Made by a program: the position numbers and the translations under genes. The notes beneath the pieces are model-generated. The model did no database searches and had not been told where the DNA came from. It saw nothing but the letters and a program-made list of their open reading frames with translations. Shown piece by piece: positions 11,909 to 44,420 of a DNA stretch of 64,000 nt; positions within the stretch are counted from its first letter, which is position 1, and every line of letters starts with the position of its first letter. This DNA is from Haloterrigena turkmenica DSM 5511 (GTDB taxonomy: Archaea; Halobacteriota; Halobacteria; Halobacteriales; Natrialbaceae). The stretch is from the NCBI RefSeq assembly GCF_000025325.1, contig NC_013743.1, positions 2,046,001-2,110,000 of the forward strand, in the 5' to 3' direction.

Positions 11909-12292
11909 TCAGTGTTCGACCAGTTCGATCAGAATCCCCCCGGTGTCCCTGGGGTGGAGGAACGCGACCGAGTGGCCCCACGCGCCGGGTCGCGGTTCGT
12001 CGTCGATCAACGCGACGTCGTGTTCGCGCGCGGTCTCGAGGGCCGCCTCGATATCGTCGGTCGCGAGCGCGAGGTGGTGGATTCCGGCGCCGTTGTCCTC
12101 GAGATAGCGCGAGATCGTGCCTTCCTCGAGAGGCTCGAGCAGTTCGAAGTAACCATCGCCGCACTCGAGGAAGACGACGCGCAGTCCGTCGAACTCCTCC
12201 TCGTGGGCGACCTCGAGGCCGAAGAGGTCGCCGTACAGGTCGGCAAGTTCCCGTACGTTCTCCGTCGCGATCCCTGCGTGATCGAAGTGCAT
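11909..12292 (-). CDS. mce: methylmalonyl-CoA epimerase
   Basis: 127 aa VOC-fold enzyme starting MHFDHAGIATENVRELADLY. Metal-ligand positions are visible: His near residue 4, HHLALATDDI, and a C-terminal Glu in GGILIELVEH. The length is typical of methylmalonyl-CoA epimerases. It interconverts (R)- and (S)-methylmalonyl-CoA, linking propionyl-CoA carboxylase to the mutase at 16097-17779. It is separated from the mutase by two unrelated genes and a repeat-bearing spacer. Confidence 0.88.
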   Translation of the reverse strand: MHFDHAGIATENVRELADLYGDLFGLEVAHEEEFDGLRVVFLECGDGYFELLEPLEEGTISRYLEDNGAGIHHLALATDDIEAALETAREHDVALIDDEPRPGAWGHSVAFLHPRDTGGILIELVEH

Positions 12293-12625
12293 GGGTGCTC
12301 TTTTCTCGGGATCGACAAATAGCGCTATGGTTCTCGGCGATTAATCGTTTTATTTCAGGTTCAGGTAGTCTCTCGAGTCCAATCTGAACGATGGAATCGA
12401 ACGGTACTACGTCACGAACGCGTATCCATCAGGATTGTGGCAACAGGGAATCGCCACACCCTCCCCAACCGATTCGCTCGCTCCGAAGTCGCTCACTCAT
12501 CCCTCGCACGGGATCATCGGCCGCCCTCACTATCGTTCAGGCGGCCGACAGCGCGCGCCACCGCACACCGTCGGTCGGAGCAGTCTGTAGGCCGACGAAA
12601 TTGATCGTTCGACCCGAGAAATCTC
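12293..12625. repeat. non-coding spacer with a likely dispersed haloarchaeal repeat
   Basis: 333 bp with no credible gene. Positions 12450-12530 hold a CCACACCCTCCCCAACC segment followed by repeated TCGCTC/CTCACTC/CCCTCGC units. From memory, such segments recur between genes of Natrinema-like genomes and yield spurious reading frames with ESPHPPQPI-type peptides. An AT-rich ATTAATCGTTTTATTTC near 12341 may be the epimerase promoter. Confidence 0.4.
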
Positions 12626-13459
12626 TCACCGCAGTCCGAGCGTGACAGCCAGCTGATCCCAGAGTCCGTCGCCGACGTCGGCGACCGCCGCCAGCTCGTC
12701 GTCCGAGAGTTCGAAGTCGAAGATGTCGGCGTTCGCTTCGATGTGCTCGCGGCTCGAGGCCTTCGGAATCGCCGCCACGCTGGGCTGCTGGACGAGCCAG
12801 CGCAGCGCGACCTGCGACGCCGACTTGCCGGAGGGATCGCCGATCTCGGCGAGTCGGTCGTCGCCCGGAACGGTCCCCTCCGCGAGCGGGCTGTACGCCG
12901 TCAGGCAGACGTCGTGCTCGACGCAGTACTCGAGCAGGTCGTCCTGGTGGTGATACGGGTGGTACTTCACCTGGTTCGCGACGATCGGCGTCTCGGACAG
13001 CTCGCGGGCCGACTCGAGTTGCTCGACGGAGAAGTTGCTGACGCCGACGTGATCGACGGCTCCCTCGTCCTGCAGGTCGTTCATCGCGGTCAGCGTTTCC
13101 TCGAGGGGCGCGCGGTCGCTCGGCGCGTGGAGCAAGAGGAGATCGACCGCCTCGAGTCCGAGTCGCTCGAGGCTCTCGCGGGTCGATTCGAGGACGTCGT
13201 CGCGCGCGGCGTTGTCGGGGTGGACCTTGGTGACGACGAAGACGTCCTCGCGGTCGACGTCGCTGGCGGCGAGGGCCTCGCCGACGGCGCGCTCGTTGTC
13301 GTACATCTGGGCGGTGTCGACGTGTCGGTAGCCGACCTCGAGGGCGGTCTCGACGGCCCGCCGACACTCGTCGCCGGTCATTCTGGCGGTGCCGAATCCG
13401 AGCACCGGAATCTCGGCGCCCCCTGCAGTAACGGTCGCTGTCGAGGCGGTCTCGCGCAT
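12626..13459 (-). CDS. aldo/keto reductase
   Basis: 277 aa from ATG 13459 (MRETASTATV); the extra upstream frame to 13597 is rejected as untypical. Landmarks are PVLGFGTARMTG, catalytic Asp/Tyr in HVDTAQMYDNERAVGEAL, catalytic Lys in VFVVTKVHP, catalytic His in LLLLHAP, then GVSNFSVEQLE and the NADPH-binding IPKASSREHIEANADIFDF. A classical AKR family member that reduces aldehydes or ketones with NAD(P)H. No specific substrate is evident. It may form a two-gene unit with the PQQ dehydrogenase, which lies upstream on the same strand. Confidence 0.92.
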   Translation of the reverse strand: MRETASTATVTAGGAEIPVLGFGTARMTGDECRRAVETALEVGYRHVDTAQMYDNERAVGEALAASDVDREDVFVVTKVHPDNAARDDVLESTRESLERLGLEAVDLLLLHAPSDRAPLEETLTAMNDLQDEGAVDHVGVSNFSVEQLESARELSETPIVANQVKYHPYHHQDDLLEYCVEHDVCLTAYSPLAEGTVPGDDRLAEIGDPSGKSASQVALRWLVQQPSVAAIPKASSREHIEANADIFDFELSDDELAAVADVGDGLWDQLAVTLGLR

Positions 13460-13619
13460 GGCTCTGTTTTTCACGTCGGGAGCCATCAACCCCGGGCCGG
13501 CGAACGGAGCCCGCGGTTGTCCACAGTTCGAGGACGGGCCTCGCCCGGTGACTCGAGGGCGGTCCTCGAGCATGACCAGCCTCGAACCGGCGAGCATGGG
13601 CGATGCGGCGACGGCGGGA

Positions 13620-15920
13620 TCAGGCGCCGTCGGCGGTCACGTTCTCGCTCAGCGTCTCGTTGTCGGTCGCGTTCTCACCGTCAGTGACGTTCTCGTCCGC
13701 GACGCTCTCGTTGTCCGTGGCGTTCTCGGCGATCGATTCGTTCTGAGTGTCTTCGGTCGCGTTCTCGTCCGTCTCTTGCTCCTCGGGTTCGACCGCTTCG
13801 TCCGCTTCGAACGGTTCCAGCGACTCGCCCTCGCCCGGTGGAACGATCTCGAAGACCGTGCCCGTGTCGCCCTCCGGAACGCCCACCTGATTTGCGAGCA
13901 CGTACACGTTACCGTCGAGGTCCTGACCGAACTGCCGGACGAAGTACGGAAACGAGCCGTCTTCGGAGCCGGCGAGCTGGAGTTCCTCCATATCCCAGAG
14001 TTCGTCTCGCGGAACGACCTGCTCTTGGCCGCCACCGCCGACGTCCGCCGCGCCGTCGTCGGGCGTCTCGTTGGTCGCGTTGGTCGCGTTCGTCTCGTTC
14101 TCGAAGCCTTCGCCTTCGATACCCTCTTCGTCGGGCGTCGCGTTCTCCGGCATCTCCTGGTCGTCGGGACTCATCCCTTCGGTCTGGTTGCCACCGCCGT
14201 CGCCGGTCATCCCTCCGGCCCCGTCACTCGGCTCCGAAGCGGCGAGGATTCGCCCCTGCGGGGACTGTCGCGCCGGATCGGCCGTCCAGTCGCCGAAGAC
14301 GTACTTCCCGTCGAGGTCCCCGATATCGCCGGCCTCGTAGACGTGGCCGCCGATGATCGTGATGCCGACCACCTGTTCCTGGTACACGTGGGGATACTCG
14401 ACGATGGGGTCTTGCAGTTCCTGCCCGTCATACGGCGCTTCGTCGGGCGCCGAGTCGGGGCAGTCCTCCGGCGGCTGGCTGGGACTCTCAGTGCTGAAGC
14501 AGTGGGTCCCCTCCTTGACGTTCCAACCGTAGTTGCCGCCAGCCTCGACGAGGTTCGCCTCCTCGAAGAGGTCCTGGCCGGCGTCGGAGACGAACAGCCG
14601 TCCGTCGCTGTCGAAGGAGATCCCGAAGGGGTTTCGGAAGCCCCACGCGTAGTGTTCGTCGAGTCCCTCGTCCGAATCGACGAGCGGGTTGTCCTCCGGG
14701 ATGGCGTACGGTCGGTCCTCGCCCTCCTCGTCGGCGGCGTCGCCGCTTCCGTCTCGAGACGTCTCCGACATCTCGCTATCGACGTCGACTCTGAGGACAC
14801 TTCCGAGGAGGTTCTCGCTGACGTCCTGTCCGTTCCCGCCCTCGTTCCCGTCGTACCAGTCCTCGACGTGGCCTTCCATGTTGTCGTTGGCACCGCCGCC
14901 GTCGCCCATCGGGACGTACAGGTAGCCGTCGGGGCCGAACGCCATCGGTCCGGCGTCGTGGTTGTACTGGGGCTTCTGGAACTCCATCAGAACCCGTTCC
15001 GAGTCGGGGTCGCCGGCGCTCAGGTCCTCGGTAGCCTGCAACTCGGAGACGACCTCGACGTGGCTCCAGCCCTCCGGCGTCTCGTCGTTCGGCGGCGCGC
15101 TGTAGTGGACGAAGAAGCGGCCGTTCTCCGCGAACTCGGGATGGAACTCGACACCGAGCAGTCCCCGCTCGTCGTAGTCCTGATTCGGATCGGCGTAGTC
15201 GCCCTCGAACGTGCCGAGTTCGACCAGCCGGTCGCTGACGTCGAGGAACGGTTCGTCCTGCAGGCCGTCTCCCGTAACGACCCAGAGCTCGCCCGTCTGG
15301 TCGGCGACGAAGTACCGCTCCTCGTCCTCGTCGGCGACCGCCATGTCCGTCGGCGCCGTCATTCCCTCCGCGAGCGTTCGTACGCCGATCTCCGCGCCGG
15401 GATCGAAGAAGGCCTCGGGCTCTTCTTCGGCCGCTTCGTCTTGCTCCGCCCCGCCCCCACCACCGTCGCCGACCGAAATCTCCCCGCGCATCGTCGCCGA
15501 GTGCGGTTCGCAGTAGTACTCCGCCATCTCGCTCGTCGCCTCGAACTCGAGGGTCTGCGTCTCGCCCTGTTCCATCAGCAGGTCGGTTCGCTCGAGTTGC
15601 TCTCCGCCCTCGCTCTCGATGACGAAGTTGTGCGGTTGCCCGTCGAGGTTCTCCCACGTGAGTTCGTAGGTCGTTCCCGCCTCGAGTTCCAGCGTGGGGT
15701 TCGTCTCGCCCGCGATGTCGTCGGGCGCGACGCCCTGCCAGCCGCTGGTCTCGCCGCCCAGTTCGATCGTCTCTACCCCCTGAGCGGCCGCGAGATCGCC
15801 CAGCGCGACGACGCCGCCGGCGGCCGCGGCGGCCTTCAACAGGTGCCGACGGGACGTCGCGGTATAGTCGGTCGCTGATTCGGGTACCGGATTCGGCCGC
15901 TCGTCAGATCGCTCGCTCAT
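13620..15920 (-). CDS. Tat-exported cupredoxin-PQQ sugar dehydrogenase fusion with sequon-rich tail
   Basis: 766 aa from ATG 15920. Order: twin-arginine signal (SRRHLLKAAAAAGG, residues 23-36); a halocyanin-like cupredoxin domain at about 50-150 with a full type 1 copper set His97, Cys137, His140, Met144; an acidic linker; then a soluble glucose dehydrogenase-type PQQ beta-propeller (LLGVEFHPEFAENGRFFVHY, YNHDAGPMAFGPDGYLYVP, WGFRNPFGISFDSDGRLFVSDAG). Internal Asn/Glu/Gly-rich insertions and the last 50 residues are packed with N-x-T/S sequons. Predicted role: extracellular sugar or aldose oxidation, with electrons passed directly to the attached blue-copper domain. Confidence 0.88.
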   Translation of the reverse strand: MSERSDERPNPVPESATDYTATSRRHLLKAAAAAGGVVALGDLAAAQGVETIELGGETSGWQGVAPDDIAGETNPTLELEAGTTYELTWENLDGQPHNFVIESEGGEQLERTDLLMEQGETQTLEFEATSEMAEYYCEPHSATMRGEISVGDGGGGGAEQDEAAEEEPEAFFDPGAEIGVRTLAEGMTAPTDMAVADEDEERYFVADQTGELWVVTGDGLQDEPFLDVSDRLVELGTFEGDYADPNQDYDERGLLGVEFHPEFAENGRFFVHYSAPPNDETPEGWSHVEVVSELQATEDLSAGDPDSERVLMEFQKPQYNHDAGPMAFGPDGYLYVPMGDGGGANDNMEGHVEDWYDGNEGGNGQDVSENLLGSVLRVDVDSEMSETSRDGSGDAADEEGEDRPYAIPEDNPLVDSDEGLDEHYAWGFRNPFGISFDSDGRLFVSDAGQDLFEEANLVEAGGNYGWNVKEGTHCFSTESPSQPPEDCPDSAPDEAPYDGQELQDPIVEYPHVYQEQVVGITIIGGHVYEAGDIGDLDGKYVFGDWTADPARQSPQGRILAASEPSDGAGGMTGDGGGNQTEGMSPDDQEMPENATPDEEGIEGEGFENETNATNATNETPDDGAADVGGGGQEQVVPRDELWDMEELQLAGSEDGSFPYFVRQFGQDLDGNVYVLANQVGVPEGDTGTVFEIVPPGEGESLEPFEADEAVEPEEQETDENATEDTQNESIAENATDNESVADENVTDGENATDNETLSENVTADGA

Positions 15921-16096
15921 GGGTGACTCACGGCACCGCCGTCGGCCGATATTCGGATAAATAGAGCCCACCGTTTCCTCGAGTTCCCCGCTCAACGGAG
16001 TGTTGCCTCCGAATCGCCCGACGGAAGCGTCTGTAAACGAGTGTTACTCGAGACACATCGGTAGCGTTACTCGAATCAACTCGTAGGTTCAGTTCG

Positions 16097-17779
<1,683 letters not shown>

Positions 17780-17965
17780 TATCGTTACTGATCGACGGGC
17801 TGGGGCTTGAAGGTTCATGAAGGCGGCCAGTATCGTCTCGAGTCGCGACGGCGATTCGGCGAAATCGCCTCGAGTGGCGCGACTGTCGCCTCGCACACAT
17901 CCGATTTCGTGACCGTCGCCTGTCCCGGCACGACCGTTTTTCAGCGATGCCGTGGTAGGGCCGCT

Positions 17966-35916: not shown

Positions 35917-36053
35917 GGGTATCCCCACGTGTTCGTTCGGCGACAGTCGCCATAGCTGTGTCGGGTGTTCCCGTGACCCGTACGGGCGGCGACGCTCGAG
36001 TCGACCGTATCGATGGTGTTCCAAAGAAAGACTGTGACCGGTGTCCCGGTCAT

Positions 36054-36458
36054 TCAGTCGTCGCTCGGCGCCGCGGCCTGCTGATCCCTGACGTGGTCGA
36101 CGATCTCCTTAGTCTCGGAGACGAACGTCTCATGGTCGATCTCCGCACCGTGTAACACCGTCGAGAAGTATCGCACGCTACTGGCGACCCCGATCGCTTC
36201 GGACAGTTCCTCGTCGGTCACCTCCTCGAGTTTCGCCTCCTCCCTGTGGAAGTGCACGCAGTACGGACACTGCATCGCCGACGCCGCGCCGAGGGCGACC
36301 AGTGCCTTTTCCCGCCCTTCGAGTTCGGTCTCTTCTAACTCGAGGTCGCGGACGATTCCCCAGCTGTGGTCGGCGGCCGGCTCCGGAAGCGCGTCGATCC
36401 AGCTCGGAACGCGTCCGAGGTACTCTTCGATCTCCGCTCGCGTTTCGGTTGTTACCAT
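36054..36458 (-). CDS. AhpD/carboxymuconolactone decarboxylase-like protein
   Basis: 134 aa from ATG 36458 ([15 protein letters not shown]); a second ATG at 36485 adds nine residues. The AhpD motif is clear: [47 protein letters not shown] with Cys-x-x-Cys and the His three residues on. This is the CMD-like alkylhydroperoxidase fold. Expected role is peroxide or thiol redox chemistry in the cytoplasm. It lies 137 bp upstream of a DJ-1 gene on the same strand. Confidence 0.88.
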
Positions 36459-36747
36459 TTTCTCCCTCCTGTGGATCTCCCGCATCGTTTCGAACTGCCC
36501 CGACGCTGCGATACGATACCGGGGATATCCGTCTATACTACGCGCCGCGAGGTGATGAACCCGACACACAAGTATCCGATAGCAGGAGTCAGAGAGTTAC
36601 GACGAGTCGTGCTGACGAGAAAACCGGTCTCGTCGATGACGCGTTCGGTGGTGGATCGACGAAACTAAGACGGATTCGCCGACGGGTCGGAACGACGCTG
36701 TCGCGATGGCGATTCGGAGCGAGGAACTGTCTGTGCGTCGCGTCCGC

Positions 36748-37914
36748 CTAGAACGCTCGCTTGATCTTCTCGAAGAAGCCTTCGTTGACCTCGATCTCGT
36801 CGCCGCCGGCCTCGGCGAACGCCTCGAGGGCCTCGCGCTGTTCCTCGTTTAAGCTCTCGGGGGTAACGACCTGCACCTGCACGTGGAGGTCGCCGTGCCC
36901 GCGGCCGCGCAGTCGGGGCATCCCCTCGCCCTCGAGACGGAAGGTCTCGCCGCTCTGGGTTCCCTTCGGAATGTCGAGTTCGACGGCGCCGGAAAGCGTC
37001 GGGATTTCGACGGTGTCGCCGAAGGTGGCCTGCGGGAACGAGATGGGGAGCCGGTACTGGAGGTCGTCGCCCTCGCGTTCGAACTCCTCGTGGTCCCGAA
37101 CCGAGACGTCGATCAGGAGGTCGCCGTGCCGGCCGCCTTCGGGACTCGGCGCGCCCTCGCGCTCCATCCGAAGCGTCTGGCCCTCCTGAATACCGGCGGG
37201 GACTTCGACGGTCAACTGGGCCTCGTTGCGGACGTAGCCCTCGCCCCGACACTCGTCGCAGGACTCGGAGTACAGCGTTCCGTCGCCTTCACAGCGCGGA
37301 CAGGTGGTCGTCTGCTGGACTCGGCCAAGCGGCGTCTGCTGGACCTGCGTCACCTGACCCCGGCCCTGACACTCCGGGCAGGTCTGGGAGTCCGCCTCCG
37401 GCGGATGGCCCTCGCCCTCACAGACGTCGCACTCCTCGGGTCGCTCGACGGTGAACTGCTTTTGAACGCCCTCGTAGGCCTCCTCTAAGTCGATCTCGAG
37501 TTCGGTTCGCAGGTCCCGACCCTTGCGCGGTCGCCGGCGGCCGCGCCCGCCGCCACCGCCGCCGAAGACCTGCTCGAAGATGTCGCCGAGACCGCCGCCG
37601 CCCATGCCGCCACCGCCGCCCATCCCGCCGAACGGGCCGCCGCCCATCCCGCCGGCACCGCCCTCGCTGGCGTCGAAGCCGTGTTTCTCGGCCTGCTCGT
37701 AGCGGTCGTGGCCCATGCGGTCGTACGCGCTGCGCTTTTCCTCGTCGGTGAGGACCTTCTTCGCCTTCTGGATCTTCTTGAATTTCTCCTCGGCGTCGGG
37801 GTCGTCGCTCACGTCCGGATGATATTCGGTGGCCTTCTGCCGGTAGGCCTGTTTGATCTCCTCGGCGGACGCGTCCTGGTCCACACCGAGTACGTCGTAG
37901 AAGTCCTCGCTCAT
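36748..37914 (-). CDS. dnaJ: chaperone DnaJ
   Basis: 388 aa from ATG 37914 (MSEDFYDVLGVDQDASAEEIK). J domain with HPD in ATEYHPDVSDDPDAEEKFKKIQ; Gly/Phe-poor but Gly/Met-rich linker (MGGGGGMGGGGLGDIFEQVFGG); four CxxCxGxG zinc repeats (CDVCEGEG, CPECQGRG, CPRCEGDG, CDECRGEG); C-terminal substrate-binding domain. Full-length class A Hsp40, the co-chaperone of DnaK at 39659. In the Hsp70 cluster an inserted halocin-like island separates it from dnaK. Confidence 0.97.
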   Translation of the reverse strand: MSEDFYDVLGVDQDASAEEIKQAYRQKATEYHPDVSDDPDAEEKFKKIQKAKKVLTDEEKRSAYDRMGHDRYEQAEKHGFDASEGGAGGMGGGPFGGMGGGGGMGGGGLGDIFEQVFGGGGGGRGRRRPRKGRDLRTELEIDLEEAYEGVQKQFTVERPEECDVCEGEGHPPEADSQTCPECQGRGQVTQVQQTPLGRVQQTTTCPRCEGDGTLYSESCDECRGEGYVRNEAQLTVEVPAGIQEGQTLRMEREGAPSPEGGRHGDLLIDVSVRDHEEFEREGDDLQYRLPISFPQATFGDTVEIPTLSGAVELDIPKGTQSGETFRLEGEGMPRLRGRGHGDLHVQVQVVTPESLNEEQREALEAFAEAGGDEIEVNEGFFEKIKRAF

Positions 37915-38281
37915 TCGTTGTACACCGATTGTCGATTGAGACACTTGAAACGAACGTTCCCGGAGTATGCGGTCTAGTTCGATCTCTCGGCTCACGATCG
38001 ACCGTAACAGTACTGGGTTCCACGCATTCCCGTTTCAACTGAGAAAACCGTTTTCTCGTACGATAACGCATGATCGATTTGACCTTGCAAAGTGTGGGAA
38101 ATAGCTAATAGTTCGGTAAATCATTAGTCGATTGGACTGCGACCGTATCATGTCGCCAGTTGCTATCAAAACACATATCGGTAGTTCTAACAGCCTGACT
38201 ACCACAAATTGGAGAGCAAAAGAGCACTGGAAATGGGTGGTACGGACATTGCCATATTATATTTTCGAACGAGGTAATAGC
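37915..38281. other. AT-rich spacer between dnaJ and the halocin-like island
   Basis: 367 bp. From about 38050 the base composition drops sharply to AT-rich (TAATAGTTCGGTAAATCATTAG, CATATTATATTTTCG), marking the left border of the foreign segment. The dnaJ promoter should lie within 37915-37985. A short plus-strand frame at 38132-38341 has no coding character. No other gene recognised. Confidence 0.5.
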
Positions 38282-38494
38282 TTATCCTTCGATCCAGACA
38301 TACCATATGACTGCTGCGAAGACACTTGCAAATATAATTGAAGTCCAAATTGCTTCTGCTATAGATAATCCTCTAGAGATATTGGCTATGAATGACACGC
38401 AAAAAGTTATAGAAAAATATAATATTGCCTTTCTCAACCTATTAGAATAAAACTCGCCGTTTGATTTCTGATCAGACATCAATGGTGAATTCAT
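38282..38494 (-). CDS. small two-helix membrane protein downstream of halocin-like gene
   Basis: 70 aa from ATG 38494; ATG 38479 (MSDQKSNGEFYSNRL) is an alternative. A basic N-terminal region is followed by two membrane helices (AILYFSITFCVSFIANIS and AIWTSIIFASVFAAVIWYVWI). It starts 72 bp after the halocin-like stop on the same strand, shares the AT-rich composition, and is likely co-transcribed. Its position suggests immunity or export support, but that is inference; no family recognised. Its residues are less acidic than core haloarchaeal proteins. Confidence 0.65.
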   Translation of the reverse strand: MNSPLMSDQKSNGEFYSNRLRKAILYFSITFCVSFIANISRGLSIAEAIWTSIIFASVFAAVIWYVWIEG

Positions 38495-38565
38495 AGTGGG
38501 TCCGTTAACGACTCCTACACGACGCAGCGCAATTCGGCTTACGGTTGATGAACCGCAAGAGTCGG

Positions 38566-39360
38566 TTAGCAGAACCCACCTTCTTCACAAAGGTTTTCGT
38601 GCTTAAGGCTATCGCTGACAGTACAGTCATTCGGGACTGCAACATGAGCGCAAATCATCGTCGCAGCAACCCCACAGCCGATCCCGAGCAGAGGCGTACC
38701 GACGAAACTGACTCCTGCACAGATAAGTCCCGTATTGGCGCTGCATCCAACCCTACACAATTCCTTCATTATCGTTGTACATTGGCCACAGCTAACACCA
38801 TTCCGACCCGAAGGAGTCACAAGTCCATCACGATCACTAATGGAAGTGATAATCCTACCATTTTCCAATGTGGCTTCAGTAGTTGTCTTCTTTATCTCTC
38901 CATTATGTAGTCGAAATTCAGTTATTTCGTATGTCTCTTCGGCTATGGGCTCCGACATCAACGCTTTAGAGTATATGATAGATTCATCTTCAAGAGTGAA
39001 TGTAAGGTCAGCATCGACCGATGAATCAGAGAACTCTAATGGAAACGAAACTATCGTTCCTGTTCTATCTTCTGCAGTTTTACTATCCGTTATTTCATGG
39101 ACGGATGGATCGTCTAGAATATCGATTCGACCATGATTGTCGAAGTACTCATCATAGGCCCTATATTCGTTTGATTGGCGAACTCTTGACACGATATTTG
39201 TTTTCTTATATTCATTTATTTCTTCTATCTCACCGGTTATATCACCTACGGAACCAGCACCTATACCACTGAATGTGCCTATAGCAACTGAACTTGCTGC
39301 AGTGCCTTTCAAAACCTTCCGACGAGTGAGTGGGGAGCTCTTTTCGCTATCTTCTGGCAT
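38566..39360 (-). CDS. halocin C8-like antimicrobial precursor (Tat signal, ten-cysteine C-terminus)
   Basis: 264 aa. Residues 11-36 form a twin-arginine signal (LTRRKVLKGTAASSVAIG). Residues 40-187 contain no cysteine and are hydrophilic, beta-rich. All ten cysteines lie in the last 74 residues at 191, 194, 202, 206, 214, 229, 237, 246, 258 and 264, around a hydrophobic core (CAGVSFVGTPLLGIGC). This spacing closely follows that of the halocin C8 peptide as I recall it, whose precursor also carries an N-terminal immunity domain. Expected: Tat export, cleavage near residue 188, release of an about 76-residue peptide. AT-rich composition marks horizontal acquisition. Confidence 0.85.
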   Translation of the reverse strand: MPEDSEKSSPLTRRKVLKGTAASSVAIGTFSGIGAGSVGDITGEIEEINEYKKTNIVSRVRQSNEYRAYDEYFDNHGRIDILDDPSVHEITDSKTAEDRTGTIVSFPLEFSDSSVDADLTFTLEDESIIYSKALMSEPIAEETYEITEFRLHNGEIKKTTTEATLENGRIITSISDRDGLVTPSGRNGVSCGQCTTIMKELCRVGCSANTGLICAGVSFVGTPLLGIGCGVAATMICAHVAVPNDCTVSDSLKHENLCEEGGFC

Positions 39361-39384
39361 ACAAATATCGATTTCTGGAACAGA

Positions 39385-39392
39385 TATTTAAA
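39385..39392 (-). promoter_or_regulatory. TATA box of the halocin-like gene
   Basis: On the minus strand TTTAAATA is centred about 28 nt upstream of the ATG at 39360. It is a near-consensus haloarchaeal TATA box, implying a short or absent leader. Confidence 0.7.
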
Positions 39393-39462
39393 TTCTCCTA
39401 AGTAGTTGAATTATCCGACTACCGGACTTGTCTCCGAGTTCAAAAATCCACTCTGTTCAGTT

Positions 39463-39660
39463 TCGAAACTCGATGGTCCCGTTCACAACTCGGGTGCTCC
39501 TTCGTCATATCTTGCACCGCTCTTCCATCGGGCCGAAGAAAATGACTTCTCGCGTTATCGTCGTCTTCGTCAAATTCGAAAACTCACTGCGTTCGTTTTC
39601 GAAACTACGATGGACTCGTTGCACTCGTCCATCGAGCCCAAGAAGACGACTCCTCGCGTT
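39463..39660. repeat. degenerate tandem duplication next to the dnaK stop codon
   Basis: Two diverged copies. Copy one (39463-39570) reads GTTTCGAAACTCGATGG...TTCCATCGGGCCGAAGAAAATGACTTCTCGCG; copy two (39592-39685) reads GTTTTCGAAACTACGATGG...GTCCATCGAGCCCAAGAAGACGACTCCTCGCG and runs into the last dnaK codons. Estimated identity is about three quarters by eye with small gaps. A palindrome-like TTCGAAAACTCACTGCG lies between them. Confidence 0.6.
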
Positions 39661-41569
39661 ACTCGTCGTCGTCTTCTTGGACGTCTTCGAAGTCGGCGTC
39701 GACGAACTCCTCGTCCTCGCCGCCGGCAGCCGCGCCGGCGTCGGGACCGGGGTTCGGACCGCCGCCCATGCTGGCGCCCGCTGCGCCACCGGCCGCACCA
39801 CCAGCGCCGCCGGCGCCCGCGGCGCCGGCCTCCTGGTAGATCTGCTTGCCGATTTCCTGGAGTTCCTTGCTCAGGTCCTCGGTCGCGGCCTCGATGTCCT
39901 CGGCGTCGGCGTCGCCGTCGTCGATCGTCTCCTCGAGATCCTCGATCGCGGCCTCGATGTCGGCGCGGAGATCGTCGTCGACCTCCTCGTCGTTCTCCTC
40001 GAGGAGGGTCTCGGCGCGCTGGATCGTCGCCTCGGCGGTGTTGCGAGCCTCGATACGCTCGCGCTTCTGCTTGTCTTCCTCGGCGTGTTTCTCGGCCTCC
40101 TCCTGCATCTTCTCGATCTCGGAGTCGGAGAGCCCGGCGCCGCCCTCGATGGTGATCTCCTCGCTCTCGCCGGAGCCCTTGTCCTCGGCGGAGACGTTGA
40201 CGATCCCGTTCTCGTCGATGGAGAACGTGACCTCGATCTGGGGCGTTCCGGCGGGGGCCGGCGGGATGCCGGTCAGGTGGAACTCGCCGAGCAGTTCGTT
40301 CTTCTCGGCCAGTTCGCGCTCACCCTGGAAGACCCGGACCTGCACGGAGGTCTGGTTGTCCGCCGCCGTGGTGAAGATCTTCGACTCCTCGGTCGGGATC
40401 GTCGTGTTCTTCTCGATGAGGCGCTCGAAGAGACCGCCCTTGACCTCGATACCGAGCGAGAGGGGCGTGACGTCGAGCAGGACGATGTCGTCGACCTCGC
40501 CGCCGAGGACGCCGCCCTGAATCGCCGCGCCCAGCGCGACGGCCTCGTCGGGGTTGACGTTCTTCTGGGGCTCCTTGCCCGTCAGTTCCTCGACCTTCTC
40601 CTCGACCTGGGGCATTCGCGTAGAGCCGCCGACGAGGAGGACTTCGTCGATGTCGTCCTTCTCGTAGCCCGCGTCCTCGAGGGCCTGCTCGGTCGGTTCG
40701 ACGGTGCGGTCGATGAGGTCGCTGGTCAGCGACTCGAACTTGGCGCGAGTGAGCGATTCCTCGAGGTGGATCGGGCCGTCGTCGGTCGCCGTGATGAACG
40801 GCAGGTTGATCTCGGTCTCCTTGCGCGAGGAGAGTTCGATCTTGGCCTCCTCGGCGGCGTCCTTGAGCCGCTGGAGAGCCTGTCGGTCGTCACGGAGGTC
40901 GATGCCGTGTTCCTCCTCGAACTCCTCGGCGAGCCAGTCGATGATGGCCTCGTCCCAGTCGTCGCCGCCGAGGTCGTTGTCACCGTTGGTCGCGACGACC
41001 TCGTAGACGCCGCCGCCGAGATCGAGAATAGAAACGTCGAACGTGCCGCCACCGAGGTCGTAGACGAGAACGGTCTGGTCGGAATCGTCGTCGAGGCCGT
41101 AGGCCATCGAGGCGGCCGTCGGCTCGTTGATGATGCGCTCGACCTCGAAGCCGGCGATCTCGCCGGCGTCCTTGGTCGCCTGGCGCTGTCGGTCCGAGAA
41201 GTACGCCGGGACCGTGATGACGGCCTTCTCGATCTCGTCGCCCAGATAGTCCTCGGCGTCGCGCTTGATCTTCTGGAGGATCATCGCCGAGATCTGTTCG
41301 GGCGTGTACTCCTCGTCCTCGATCTCGACGGTGTAGTCCTCTTCGCCGATGTGGCGCTTGATCGACTGAATCGTCTTCTCGGGGTTCTGAACGGCCTGGT
41401 TCTTCGCCGGCTTCCCGACGAGTCGCTCGTCGTCGGTAAAGGCGACGACGGAGGGCGTCGTCCGTTCGCCTTCGGAGTTGACGATGATCTCCGGATCGCC
41501 GCCTTCCATCACCGCGAAGGCGCTGTTCGTCGTCCCGAGGTCGATTCCGAGAATTTTGTTGCTCGCCAT
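39659..41569 (-). CDS. dnaK: molecular chaperone DnaK (Hsp70)
   Basis: 636 aa. Starts [24 protein letters not shown]. All Hsp70 signatures occur: [39 protein letters not shown], and the substrate-domain stretch [33 protein letters not shown]. The C-terminal 40 residues are Gly/Ala-rich then [20 protein letters not shown]-driven folding in the cytoplasm with GrpE and DnaJ. It is the middle gene of the grpE-dnaK-dnaJ cluster and has its own AT-rich promoter region at 41580-41640. Confidence 0.98.
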
Positions 41570-41770
41570 CGTGGGCGGCTATTGTGCGCACTTTGTTTTA
41601 AAGGTTACTAGGGAATATCGTAGGCCGAATAAAATCTCCCGACCGGGACGTAGAAACCACTCTAACGTCCAAAAACGGGGCCTTGTGAATTCGTCACGAA
41701 GTCGAAAATCGGTCGATAATCGACGCAAAATCGGCGGGAAAACTGGCAGTTCGCTATCCGGTCGACGACC

Positions 41771-42856
41771 TCACTCCGAGTCGGCGGTCGCTTCGTCGGA
41801 CTCGGTTCCGCCGTCCTCGTCTGCGACCTCACCGCCGAGTTCGATCGCACCCTCGCTCTCGTCGTCCGACTCGTCCGATTCGTCCCCGTCGGAACCGGCC
41901 GTCGATCCGTCGTCCGCAGCCTCGTCGCTCTCGCCCGTCCCGTCGTCCGCGCCGTCCTCGAGTTCGCCGTTGGAAACGGTCACCTGCGCGTTCTGGATGA
42001 CCTTGTCGCCCATCTCGTAGCCGGGGGTGTAGACGTCGGCGACGGTCCCTTCGGGCTGGGCGCTGTCGACTTGCATCATGACCTCGTGGCGCTGTGGATC
42101 GGTCTCGGTACCGGGGTCGGGGTCGATTTCCGAGACGTTCTCGTCCTCGAGGATGCGGTCGAACTCCCGGAGGGTCATCTCGACGCCCTCGCGGAGGCTG
42201 TCGGCGTCGTCGCTGTCCTCCTCGAGGGCGCGTTTCAGGTTGTCCCGGACGCCGAGCAGTCGCTCGACGAGGTCCTCGGTCGCGCGGTCTTTGATCTGCT
42301 CCTGGCGCTTCTTGGCCCGCTTCTTGTAGTTCTGGAAGTCGGCCTGTTTGCGCTTCAGCCGGCTCTTCAGGTCCTCGACCTCGTCTTCGGTCTCCTCGAG
42401 TCGCTCCTCGCGGGCCTCGAGTTCGTCCTGAAGCTCCTCGATCGTCGCGGCCTGTTCCTCGACGCGTTCGGTCAGGTCCTCGAGTTCCTCGCGCTGGTCG
42501 GAGACGGTCCCGTTCAGCTCCCGGGCCTCCTCGACGATCGCGTTGACCTTGTGCGCGAGTTCGTCGTCGTACTCCGTGACGCGATCGAGGAGTTGCTGGA
42601 CGTCGTCGCTCGTTTCGGGTCGCGACGCCGTCTCGCCGGTCGCGTCCGCGCTCGATTCGTCGCCCGCGTGCTCCTCCGAGCCCTCGCCGGCGGCCGACGA
42701 GTTCGACGAGTCGGTCTCCGTCTTCGTCGCGTCGGCGTTGACGGCCGATTCGTCGGCGTCCGTCGTCGATTCGCTGTCGGACGGATCGGCGTCGCCGGAG
42801 TGGTCCTCGGACGGGACACCCTGGGCGGGAGCGTCCGTGCCCTCGTCTTCGCTCAT
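41771..42856 (-). CDS. grpE: nucleotide exchange factor GrpE, long acidic N-terminus
   Basis: 361 aa from ATG 42856 (MSEDEGTDAPAQG). About 110 residues of Asp/Ser/Glu-rich disorder precede a long coiled coil (LEDLTERVEEQAATIEELQDELEAREERLEE...). The GrpE core follows: KRKQADFQNYKKRAKKRQEQIKDRATEDLVERLLGVRDNLKRAL and the beta-wing HEVMMQVDSAQPEGTVADVYTPGYEMGDKVIQNAQVTV. A second acidic tail closes it. It is roughly twice the bacterial length because of the acidic extensions. It releases ADP from DnaK. Confidence 0.95.
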   Translation of the reverse strand: MSEDEGTDAPAQGVPSEDHSGDADPSDSESTTDADESAVNADATKTETDSSNSSAAGEGSEEHAGDESSADATGETASRPETSDDVQQLLDRVTEYDDELAHKVNAIVEEARELNGTVSDQREELEDLTERVEEQAATIEELQDELEAREERLEETEDEVEDLKSRLKRKQADFQNYKKRAKKRQEQIKDRATEDLVERLLGVRDNLKRALEEDSDDADSLREGVEMTLREFDRILEDENVSEIDPDPGTETDPQRHEVMMQVDSAQPEGTVADVYTPGYEMGDKVIQNAQVTVSNGELEDGADDGTGESDEAADDGSTAGSDGDESDESDDESEGAIELGGEVADEDGGTESDEATADSE

Positions 42857-42962
42857 GTGGCTGTCAACGAACAGCGGTAATAAAAGGGTTGAGGTACGGT
42901 GATCGTCGTCCCGCCCGTCGCCAGTCCGACAGTATTTGGTCGTCCGGCCGCGAGTGGGGACC

Positions 42963-44420
42963 GTGACGCGGCCCCAGAACGACCGTCCGGAGTCGCCGCC
43001 GATCGCGCTCCGGTACGAGGACGGCACCGTCCGGATCGACGGCCTCGAGAGCGACGCGCTCACCGCCGTCCGCGAGGCGGTTCCCGACCTCGCGGCCGAT
43101 CCGCGCACCGACGGGCGGCGCGTTCCCGCGTTTCGCTACGCCGACCTTCGGGCTGCCCTGGTGGACGCGACAGAAGACACCGACCGAATCGACGACCGAG
43201 TGCTGGAACTCGAGTCCCCTCCGAATCTCCACTCAGCGTACGAACTCCGCGAGTACCAACGCGAGGCGCTGTCGGCGTGGCTCGAGACGGACCGCTGGCG
43301 CGACGGCCTCGGATCCGGGGCCGATCCGGCCCCGGAACGAGCGCCCGCGGGCGTCCTCGAACTCCCGACGGGCAGCGGCAAGACGGTCATCGCGCTGAAG
43401 GCGATCGAGCGGCTCGCCGTGCCGACGCTCGTCGTCGTGCCGACGATCGACCTCCTCGAGCAGTGGCAGCGCGAACTCGAGCGAGAGTTTCGGTGTCCGA
43501 TCGGACGCTTCGGCGGCGGCGAGCAGCGACTCGAGCCGATCACGGTCTCGACGTACGACTCGGCGTACCTGAAGGCTGACTCGGTCGGCGACCGCTTCGG
43601 ACTGGTCGTCTTCGACGAGGTCCACCACCTCGGGGGCGAGGGCTACCGCGAGATCGGGCGCCTGCTCGCGGCGCCCGCCCGCCTCGGGCTCACGGCGACG
43701 TTCGAACGCCCCGACGGCGCCCACGAGGTGATCGCGGAGATCGTCGGGCCGCTCGTCCACCGCGTCGGGGCCGACGAACTGGCAGGCGACCACCTGGCGA
43801 ACTACGATATCAAGCGCCTCGCGGTGTCGCTCACCCCCGACGAACGCGAGGCCTACGAGCGTAACCAGGAGGTGTTCACCGACTACCTCGCCCGATCGGG
43901 GATCCAGATGCGCAGCGGCTCGGACTACCAGGAACTGGTCAAGCGGTCGGGATCGGATCCGGAGGCCCGGGAGGCCCTGCTCGCTCGCCAGCGCGCACGA
44001 GAGATCATGTTCGGCAGCGCGGCCAAACTCGAGGCCCTCGATGAAATCCTCGACGACCACCGCGGCGAGCGGACGATCGTCTTCACGGCCCACAACGACC
44101 TCGCGTACGACGTCAGCGAACGATTTCTGATACCGACGATCACCCACCAGACCGGCGCCGCCGAGCGACGGGAGATCTTAGAGCGCTTTCGGGAGGGGAC
44201 CTACACCCGAATCGCGACCTCGAACGTCTTGGACGAGGGGGTCGACGTCCCCGACGCGTCGGTCGCAGTGGTGCTCTCGGGCAGCGGCAGCGAACGGGAG
44301 TTCACCCAGCGACTCGGTCGAATCCTCCGCCCGAAAACCGACGGCGGTCGCGCGCTCCTCTACGAGGTCGTCGCCGAGGACACCGGCGAGGAACGGATCG
44401 CGAGACGGCGCCGTGACTGA
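42963..44420 (+). CDS. rad25: XPB/Rad25-like DNA helicase
   Basis: 485 aa from GTG 42963; a TTG frame start lies 27 nt upstream. The N-terminal damage-recognition domain is followed by LREYQREALSAWL, Walker A in ELPTGSGKTVIAL, a DEVH box in LVVFDEVHHLGG, LGLTATFERPDG and C-terminal helicase motifs TIVFTAHNDLAYDV, SNVLDEGVDVPDAS and FTQRLGRILRPK. Superfamily 2 helicase of the archaeal XPB family, used in nucleotide excision repair or transcription-linked DNA opening with nuclease Bax1. Its Bax1 partner is at 50452-52038. Confidence 0.93.
   Translation: MTRPQNDRPESPPIALRYEDGTVRIDGLESDALTAVREAVPDLAADPRTDGRRVPAFRYADLRAALVDATEDTDRIDDRVLELESPPNLHSAYELREYQREALSAWLETDRWRDGLGSGADPAPERAPAGVLELPTGSGKTVIALKAIERLAVPTLVVVPTIDLLEQWQRELEREFRCPIGRFGGGEQRLEPITVSTYDSAYLKADSVGDRFGLVVFDEVHHLGGEGYREIGRLLAAPARLGLTATFERPDGAHEVIAEIVGPLVHRVGADELAGDHLANYDIKRLAVSLTPDEREAYERNQEVFTDYLARSGIQMRSGSDYQELVKRSGSDPEAREALLARQRAREIMFGSAAKLEALDEILDDHRGERTIVFTAHNDLAYDVSERFLIPTITHQTGAAERREILERFREGTYTRIATSNVLDEGVDVPDASVAVVLSGSGSEREFTQRLGRILRPKTDGGRALLYEVVAEDTGEERIARRRRD

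Follow-up and report, generated by a model that had tools for sequence, protein, structure and literature searches.

Gene and domain organization

The window analysed here is a stretch of 64,000 nucleotides from Haloterrigena turkmenica DSM 5511 (contig NC_013743.1, positions 2,046,001 to 2,110,000; host genome of 5.44 Mb). The minus strand carries a gene (13620-15920) that joins a halocyanin-like type 1 copper domain to a six-bladed propeller of the GSDH family in one exported-type polypeptide (Table 1). This gene translates as a single open frame of 766 amino acids from an ATG, and a methionine was found at the corresponding start in the close orthologs L005, L007, L008 and L038. Both domains scored over their Pfam cut-offs: PF00127 (Copper-bind) reached 41 bits over residues 81-150 (cut-off 21.2), and PF07995 (GSDH) was matched in two stretches with 96.1 bits (cut-off 25). 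The whole protein was present in all five of the other genomes from the same genus (84-92% identity), which rules out a chance join or an assembly fault and confirms the one-chain fusion that had been proposed from the sequence.

The twin-arginine (Tat) signal was recognized by TIGR01409 (17.9 bits over residues 22-41, cut-off 16.7); the Pfam Tat model PF10518 remained below its cut-off (18.5 vs. 22.7 bits). The composition of the protein was acidic (D+E 24%, K+R 3%), and its 14 N-glycosylation sequons were confined to two largely disordered regions, the insert at residues 563-639 (6 sequons) and the tail (8 sequons). An AlphaFold2 model built with 50 sequences had a predicted local distance difference test (pLDDT) score of about 90 across most of the copper domain and propeller, and of about 89-97 over residues 51-150; it fell to 63-73 over the loop 341-360, was reduced over residues 381-400 as well, and was low for the signal, linker, residues 387-398, insert and tail.

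Table 1. Features of the copper-propeller gene and of its downstream neighbor (window positions).
Feature	Position	Strand	Basis
Whole gene, 766 amino acids: Tat signal, type 1 copper domain and GSDH/HIPL-type propeller	13620..15920	-	
Twin-arginine signal SRRHLLK, residues 1-46, no lipobox Cys	15783..15920	-	TIGR01409
Cupredoxin (halocyanin-like) domain, residues 50-152	15465..15773	-	PF00127, pLDDT
Predicted copper ligands His97 (15630-15632), Cys137 (15510-15512), His140 (15501-15503), Met144 (15489-15491)	15489..15632	-	
Gly/acidic linker from copper domain to propeller, residues 153-172	15405..15464	-	pLDDT 57-60 over 151-170
Propeller strand 6D and blades 1 to 5C, residues 173-562	14235..15404	-	Blades inferred from strand order
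His321, equivalent to catalytic His144 of sGDH	14958..14960	-	Profile alignment
Arg429-Asn430, equivalent to sGDH Arg228-Asn229	14631..14636	-	Profile alignment
Gly448-Gln449, equivalent to sGDH Gly247-Pro248, catalytic calcium loop	14574..14579	-	Profile alignment
Thr546, at the sGDH Lys377 place	14283..14285	-	Motif register, set by hand
Phe660, at the sGDH Arg406 place	13941..13943	-	Ungapped register, set by hand
Mostly disordered insert between strands 5C and 5D, residues 563-639, 6 N-glycosylation sequons	14004..14234	-	
Strand 5D and remainder of blade 6, residues 640-700	13821..14003	-	AlphaFold2
Acidic, mostly disordered tail, residues 701-766 and stop, 8 N-glycosylation sequons	13620..13820	-	
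Aldo/keto reductase, downstream neighbor	12629..13459	-	PF00248, 222 bits

Copper domain

The four residues named as a complete type 1 copper site in the sequence-only reading (His97, Cys137, His140 and Met144) were present as predicted ligands at those positions, and were invariant in 10 of 10 and in 31 of 31 aligned fused proteins. The ligand loop C-x2-H-x3-M was found in all 45 fused open reading frames (ORFs) and in 8 of the 10 free haloarchaeal relatives checked; ligand-loop lengths are x4 in plastocyanin and x2 in amicyanin. Two narrower models stayed below their cut-offs, the one for plastocyanin at 29.8 bits (cut-off 87.85) and the one for amicyanin at 20.9 bits (cut-off 110.2).

Propeller fold and closest relatives

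The AlphaFold2 model showed a six-bladed propeller. In VIA-align comparisons, the highest Z scores were about level for enzymes and for HHIP (glucose dehydrogenase 7cgz 38.0, HHIP 37.6, Pyrobaculum Asd 37.5 and E. coli Asd 37.4); the range was 35-38 for glucose dehydrogenase and Asd chains, 32-33.2 for sGDH of Acinetobacter and 25.5-26.3 for AA12 enzymes, while propellers outside the GSDH family reached 22.6 at most. Foldseek placed HHIP first (E 3e-25), followed by sGDH (4.6e-20), the Asd-type enzymes and AA12 (2.2e-9). No fused copper-propeller structure was among the matches listed by either program. By sequence, HHIP was also the best PDB relative, with 76 bits vs. 50 for sGDH when a single protein was used as query, 157 vs. 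79 with ten sequences and 197 vs. 92 with fifty. TIGR03606, the model for the glucose/sorbosone family of dehydrogenases dependent on pyrroloquinoline quinone (PQQ), scored 68.1 bits, far below its cut-off of 434.55.

The nearest solved propeller by sequence, HHIP/HIPL (28% across the structural alignment with 7pgm), shared the DERGLL motif and the KHLGG histidine with the window protein. HHIP is not known to be an enzyme, and the HIPL branch extends to plants and animals. HHIP reads His-Asp where the family of the window protein has Arg-Asn, so this branch has kept what HHIP lost. The HHIP loop corresponding to GHVEDWY..GGNGQD was much shorter than in the window protein, and the accessory domains of HHIP were not found among the Pfam matches of the latter.

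Active-site residues

Residues were counted in an alignment of 50 members, made up of the window protein plus 49 of the 83 propeller ORFs described below. Of these members 31 were fused and 19 were not; the alignment did not include the inserted form or several fused proteins of the greatest length. The catalytic His, the Arg-Asn pair and the calcium loop were mapped onto sGDH by profile alignment, and this catalytic core was kept: His144 in 50/50, Arg228 in 48/50, Asn229 in 50/50 and Gly247 in 50/50 (roles of these residues in sGDH: passages of PMC6881810). The second position of the calcium loop was Gln in 47/50 (Gln449 in the window protein).

The residues that grip PQQ in sGDH (Lys377, Arg406 and Arg408) were a different case. 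A whole-length hhalign alignment to sGDH misplaced the last blades owing to the disordered insert and was rerun without it; because these blades aligned poorly even then, the register for Lys377, Arg406 and Arg408 was set by hand from ungapped motifs and the distance to the DG turn. In this register, the equivalent of Lys377 was Lys in 0/50 and Arg in 4/50, mostly Ser or Thr, that of Arg406 was Arg in 0/50, mostly Phe or Tyr, and that of Arg408 (Arg662) was Arg in 19/50. An alternative gapped register, aligned with the paralog, put Ser656 at the Arg406 place, likewise not an Arg. The roles of Lys377 and Arg408 in PQQ binding by sGDH are described in passages of PMC6881789.

The paralog, the second GSDH gene of the host (L001, G000:C1:2371811-2372869), was of the Asd type (222 bits), with a lipobox-like Cys and an Arg-x-Arg pair, and no match to the copper domain was found in it. 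Thr also occupied the Lys377 place in this unfused protein, in which the Arg-x-Arg pair was kept; judged from this comparison, Lys377 is a soft criterion for sGDH/Asd membership.

The loop at residues 339-365 (GDGG..GHVEDWY..GGNGQD), on the active-site face by strand order, was highly conserved and unlike sGDH. Arg252, His287, His351 and Trp545 were conserved as well and are candidates for a substitute PQQ grip. AA12 enzymes hold PQQ even though they lack Lys377 and some other known PQQ residues (passages of PMC6881789 and PMC4133262); CcSDH/CcPDH depends on PQQ while missing several of the residues that bind it in bacterial enzymes (passages of PMC4133262), and CcPDH grips the PQQ carboxylate by the main-chain amides of Trp563-Asn564 (passages of PMC6881789). 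The residue at the apparent Trp563 place was Trp in 33, Tyr in 10, Phe in 6 and Val in 1 of the 50 members, and His560 and Arg621 of CcPDH appear to match Phe542 and Phe660 of the window protein, as argued from motifs.

The sequence-only reading had taken the propeller for a PQQ sugar dehydrogenase, and had named missing PQQ-binding residues as one finding that would refute its proposal; the lack of Lys377 and Arg406 equivalents goes part of the way towards that. The fold, the catalytic His, the Arg-Asn pair and the calcium-loop Gly agreed with that assignment; the Lys377 and Arg406 grips, absent in 50/50, and the low TIGR03606 score did not. The PQQ label is an annotation by family. The protein was not classed as a sGDH/Asd member because the grip residues tested were lacking, nor was it assigned to AA12. 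It belongs to the GSDH family in the broad sense and most likely acts like those enzymes; the propeller likely has a specific working pocket, and PQQ is a plausible cofactor, held by a grip other than the known one.

Distribution of the fusion

Some part of the query was matched in 35 of 41 genomes (the own genome and relatives), stand-alone cupredoxins counted, and 200 of the 391 Halobacteria genomes had a match with an E value of 1e-60 or lower. Among the matches listed, an alignment spanning the fusion was present in at least 73 of these 391 genomes, at least 70 of them without an internal stop (internal stops occurred in G041, G048 and G292); these numbers are lower bounds, as a single alignment was required to start at or before query residue 60 and to end at or after residue 390, split alignments being uncounted. 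The search for the same domain order in other genomes, proposed in the sequence-only reading, was successful both within the genus and across Halobacteria, and the arrangement, which had been called unusual, is instead common, in one unbroken frame in at least 70 of the 391 genomes. No description of a copper-propeller fusion was found in the titles or abstract openings that searches of the open-licence PMC literature returned.

A scan of genome contigs gave 374 stretches encoding a relative, the nearest named one being from Haloterrigena salina (83%). Eighty loci were kept for study; 75 of them had archaeal titles and 5 were bacterial (L093, L104, L105, L113 and L115), and propeller ORFs were counted at 250 bits or more. 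A copper domain was found on 44 of the 83 propeller ORFs, none of them bacterial; 39 had none, among them L044, the propeller part of a fusion that is split in two. This split copy (L044:4929-6788), on a plasmid of Haladaptatus halobius, consisted of a copper ORF and a propeller ORF, with two public gene names at that place. Among 20 plasmid records listed, most matches were named “PQQ-dependent sugar dehydrogenase” and one “plastocyanin”. In L017, the copper domain was encoded by a separate gene adjoining the propeller gene.

Among the unfused haloarchaeal forms, 23 of 34 had a lipobox-like motif near the start; among the fused ones, 0 of 44 did. The unfused forms thus mostly look membrane-anchored and the fused ones free or otherwise held, and fusion and lipid anchor seem mutually exclusive.

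Rearrangements and trees

A quick tree of 97 propellers was built with SH-aLRT (Shimodaira-Hasegawa approximate likelihood ratio test) support only; the rows nearest to the window protein were from Natrialbaceae. Fused and unfused states required 12 changes on this tree; with the label restricted to N-terminal fusions, 13 changes were needed, 8 of them forced by starred branches (shuffled mean 33). One change is owed to the split copy L044. The copper domain was thus repeatedly lost or gained. In a tree of 86 copper domains, with few columns and many weak forks, the fused domains clustered (7 changes, of which 1 was forced, against a shuffled mean of 26), and given this clustering a single halocyanin type may have been recruited.

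Four proteins (L016, L019, L025 and L071) carried the copper domain inside the propeller, apparently between strands C and D of blade 1. These inserted forms made up one clade (92, not starred) within a starred fork (99) shared with N-fused proteins, and their copper domains formed a clade (100) placed among the fused ones (88). In the AlphaFold2 model of L071 the copper domain had a pLDDT of about 87-95; the preceding blade 1, with few sequences covering it, was mostly below 50, so that the insertion into this blade is put forward from sequence alone. The nearest N-fused relative (L098, 1447-3789) had a long acidic stretch in the same loop of blade 1. A fused protein of Halovivax (L106:4956-7715) had Lipoprotein_15 repeats (PF03640, 106 bits) at the place of the sequon-rich insert of the window protein.

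Proposed electron path and PQQ supply

From the secondary structure, the face opposite the active site would carry the N-terminus together with the 1C-1D and 5C-5D loops. By strand order the copper domain would thus be tethered on the far face, with some 20 residues of flexible linker, and a direct relay would need a mobile copper domain; such mobility is likewise ascribed to the cytochrome domain of CDH. Direct flow of electrons from PQQ to the attached copper, as the sequence-only reading had it, was only in part sustained: a redox function was indirectly supported by the catalytic residues, the copper ligands and the pair of adjacent genes in L017, but the copper, if tethered on the far face, would have to swing. 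PQQ sugar dehydrogenases are able to reduce cupredoxins, according to passages of PMC6657660.

The PqqC model (TIGR02111, cut-off 240 bits) was reached in none of the 391 Halobacteria genomes, with one match of 19 bits; the built-in controls of this search were silent, and pSymB of Sinorhizobium meliloti, included as a further positive control, scored 428 bits. The PqqE model matched 41/41 genomes, none over its cut-off, but also 14/14 controls, and so did not discriminate. With no PqqC at cut-off, PQQ, if used, would have to be scavenged, and some prokaryotes need exogenous PQQ (passages of PMC4133262).

No match to the bc1-type cytochrome b models PF13631 and PF00033 was found in the host genome (both matched Haloferax volcanii among the controls), which had six places of the COX1 family, perhaps including nitric oxide reductases, from which the COX1 model does not separate oxidases. 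Halocyanin replaces cytochrome c in haloarchaea, and about a third of them, Natrialbales above all, have no bc1, the route of halocyanin reduction there being called unresolved (passages of PMC8305020 and PMC3403918). Electrons from a dehydrogenase that carries a copper domain of its own would come in at the copper level, and such an entry would matter here because the host combines six COX1-family places with no bc1-type cytochrome b.

Genomic neighborhood

The gene was flanked by a methylmalonyl-CoA mutase (16097-17896) and a glyoxalase-fold gene (11909-12292) that resembles a methylmalonyl-CoA epimerase (region 11909-17896). This flanking was kept in 9 of the 80 loci, all from Natrialbaceae, as judged from flanks of 5 kb at most, and synteny was set aside as a guide to the substrate. 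An operon with the downstream aldo/keto reductase was rejected as a general feature, as only 3 of the 9 syntenic loci had this gene. Seven other loci (six from Haloferax, and L096) gave weaker matches to aldo/keto reductases, at 73-84 bits. Elsewhere in the window, dnaJ, dnaK and grpE were located on the minus strand (36751-43108), with a 264-amino acid ORF without a Pfam match between dnaJ and dnaK (38569-39360), and the GC content dipped to 0.56 at 36001-40000.

Interpretation

We lean, with moderate confidence, towards a secreted dehydrogenase that passes electrons to its own halocyanin-like domain, comparable to the pyranose dehydrogenase of fungi but without heme. The protein would be exported as a two-domain oxidoreductase, and single electrons would leave the propeller, which may use calcium and PQQ in oxidizing its putative substrate, for the attached copper domain; this domain would swing on its flexible linker, dock at the active-site face and then pass the electrons to free halocyanins and terminal oxidases. 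Several of the results above weigh against this reading: HHIP as the best PDB relative, the low TIGR03606 score, the Lys377, Arg406 and Arg408 places, the position of the copper domain on the far face, the 39 propeller ORFs without it, the lack of PqqC at cut-off and the doubt about which COX1-family places are oxidases.

The same results bear on three other explanations. The propeller might be an enzyme with another cofactor or none, the copper domain serving a different redox reaction; the two side chains that bind the carboxylate in sGDH, absent in 50/50, the low TIGR03606 score, the conserved loop 339-365 so unlike sGDH and the count of 0/391 for PqqC all fit this, but the His, the Arg-Asn pair and the calcium loop are the catalytic core of sGDH, AA12 binds PQQ without Lys377 (passages of PMC6881789) and some prokaryotes rely on PQQ from outside (passages of PMC4133262), so that we regard it as unlikely, if still a serious candidate. 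We give less credit to a propeller that would be a binding module like HHIP, which has been solved with Hedgehog and with heparin, with the copper domain as an independent electron carrier tethered to a surface: HHIP was the top match by sequence and by Foldseek, and acidic, sequon-rich tails suit a surface protein, yet the Arg-Asn pair, lost in HHIP, persists in this family (48/50 and 50/50), VIA-align placed enzymes and HHIP level, and the pocket was conserved as expected of an enzyme. An ordinary exported sugar dehydrogenase with a functionless, leftover copper domain would explain its repeated loss or gain (12 changes of fused state; 13 for N-fused forms, 8 forced), but the four ligands invariant in 31/31 and the C-x2-H-x3-M loop in 45/45 make this very improbable.

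If the dehydrogenase reading is extended to the haloarchaeal family, these proteins could form a group of copper-wired dehydrogenases without heme, in which a propeller of the HIPL type takes up PQQ from outside, holds it in a non-canonical way and reduces the halocyanin joined to it covalently, so that electrons arrive directly at the copper level and, in relatives without bc1, enter the terminal oxidases by-passing the quinone pool; in one lineage the copper domain would have shifted from the N-terminus to a loop of blade 1. We propose this wider scheme only tentatively. A secreted dehydrogenase with its own halocyanin would be a concrete entry for electrons to halocyanin without bc1; it would moreover be a case of GSDH-type chemistry linked to copper in place of heme, useful for brine electrodes, and would test the enzymatic origin of the HIPL branch. 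No glucose/sorbosone dehydrogenase had been characterized in any member of Halobacteria to the knowledge of the authors of a 2016 paper (passage of PMC4766312).

Comparison with known systems

The copper domain resembled halocyanins and the plastocyanin-azurin family in its ligand set and fold, but here the copper unit is a domain within a chain of 766 amino acids. Acinetobacter sGDH and the Asd enzymes had the same fold as the propeller (Z 32-38, glucose dehydrogenase chains included) and the same catalytic His, Arg-Asn pair and calcium-loop Gly; the window protein differed from them in the absence of Lys377 and Arg406 equivalents, in another substrate-side loop and in the fused copper domain. 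A haloarchaeal halocyanin is also joined to a redox partner in the halocyanin-CbaD fusion of Halobacterium (passages of PMC8305020 and PMC3403918), where the partner is an oxidase subunit at the acceptor end, whereas the window protein would stand at the donor end.

A close architecture was that of CcPDH from Coprinopsis cinerea (AA8 cytochrome b, AA12 propeller and CBM1), a secreted protein that likewise has an N-terminal one-electron mediator, a linker and a six-bladed propeller of the GSDH type. Its mediator is heme b and not copper, and its propeller was distant from that of the window protein (13% identity, Z 25.5). The heme domain serves as a built-in mediator in CcPDH and CDH (passages of PMC6881789), and the CcPDH authors wrote that its bacterial and archaeal relatives have no cytochrome domain (passages of PMC4133262). 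The window protein has two domains in one chain, in the manner of CDH and CcPDH, and is presumably a dehydrogenase as they are; a dehydrogenase with a built-in mediator was known already, and what is new is copper in the place of heme.

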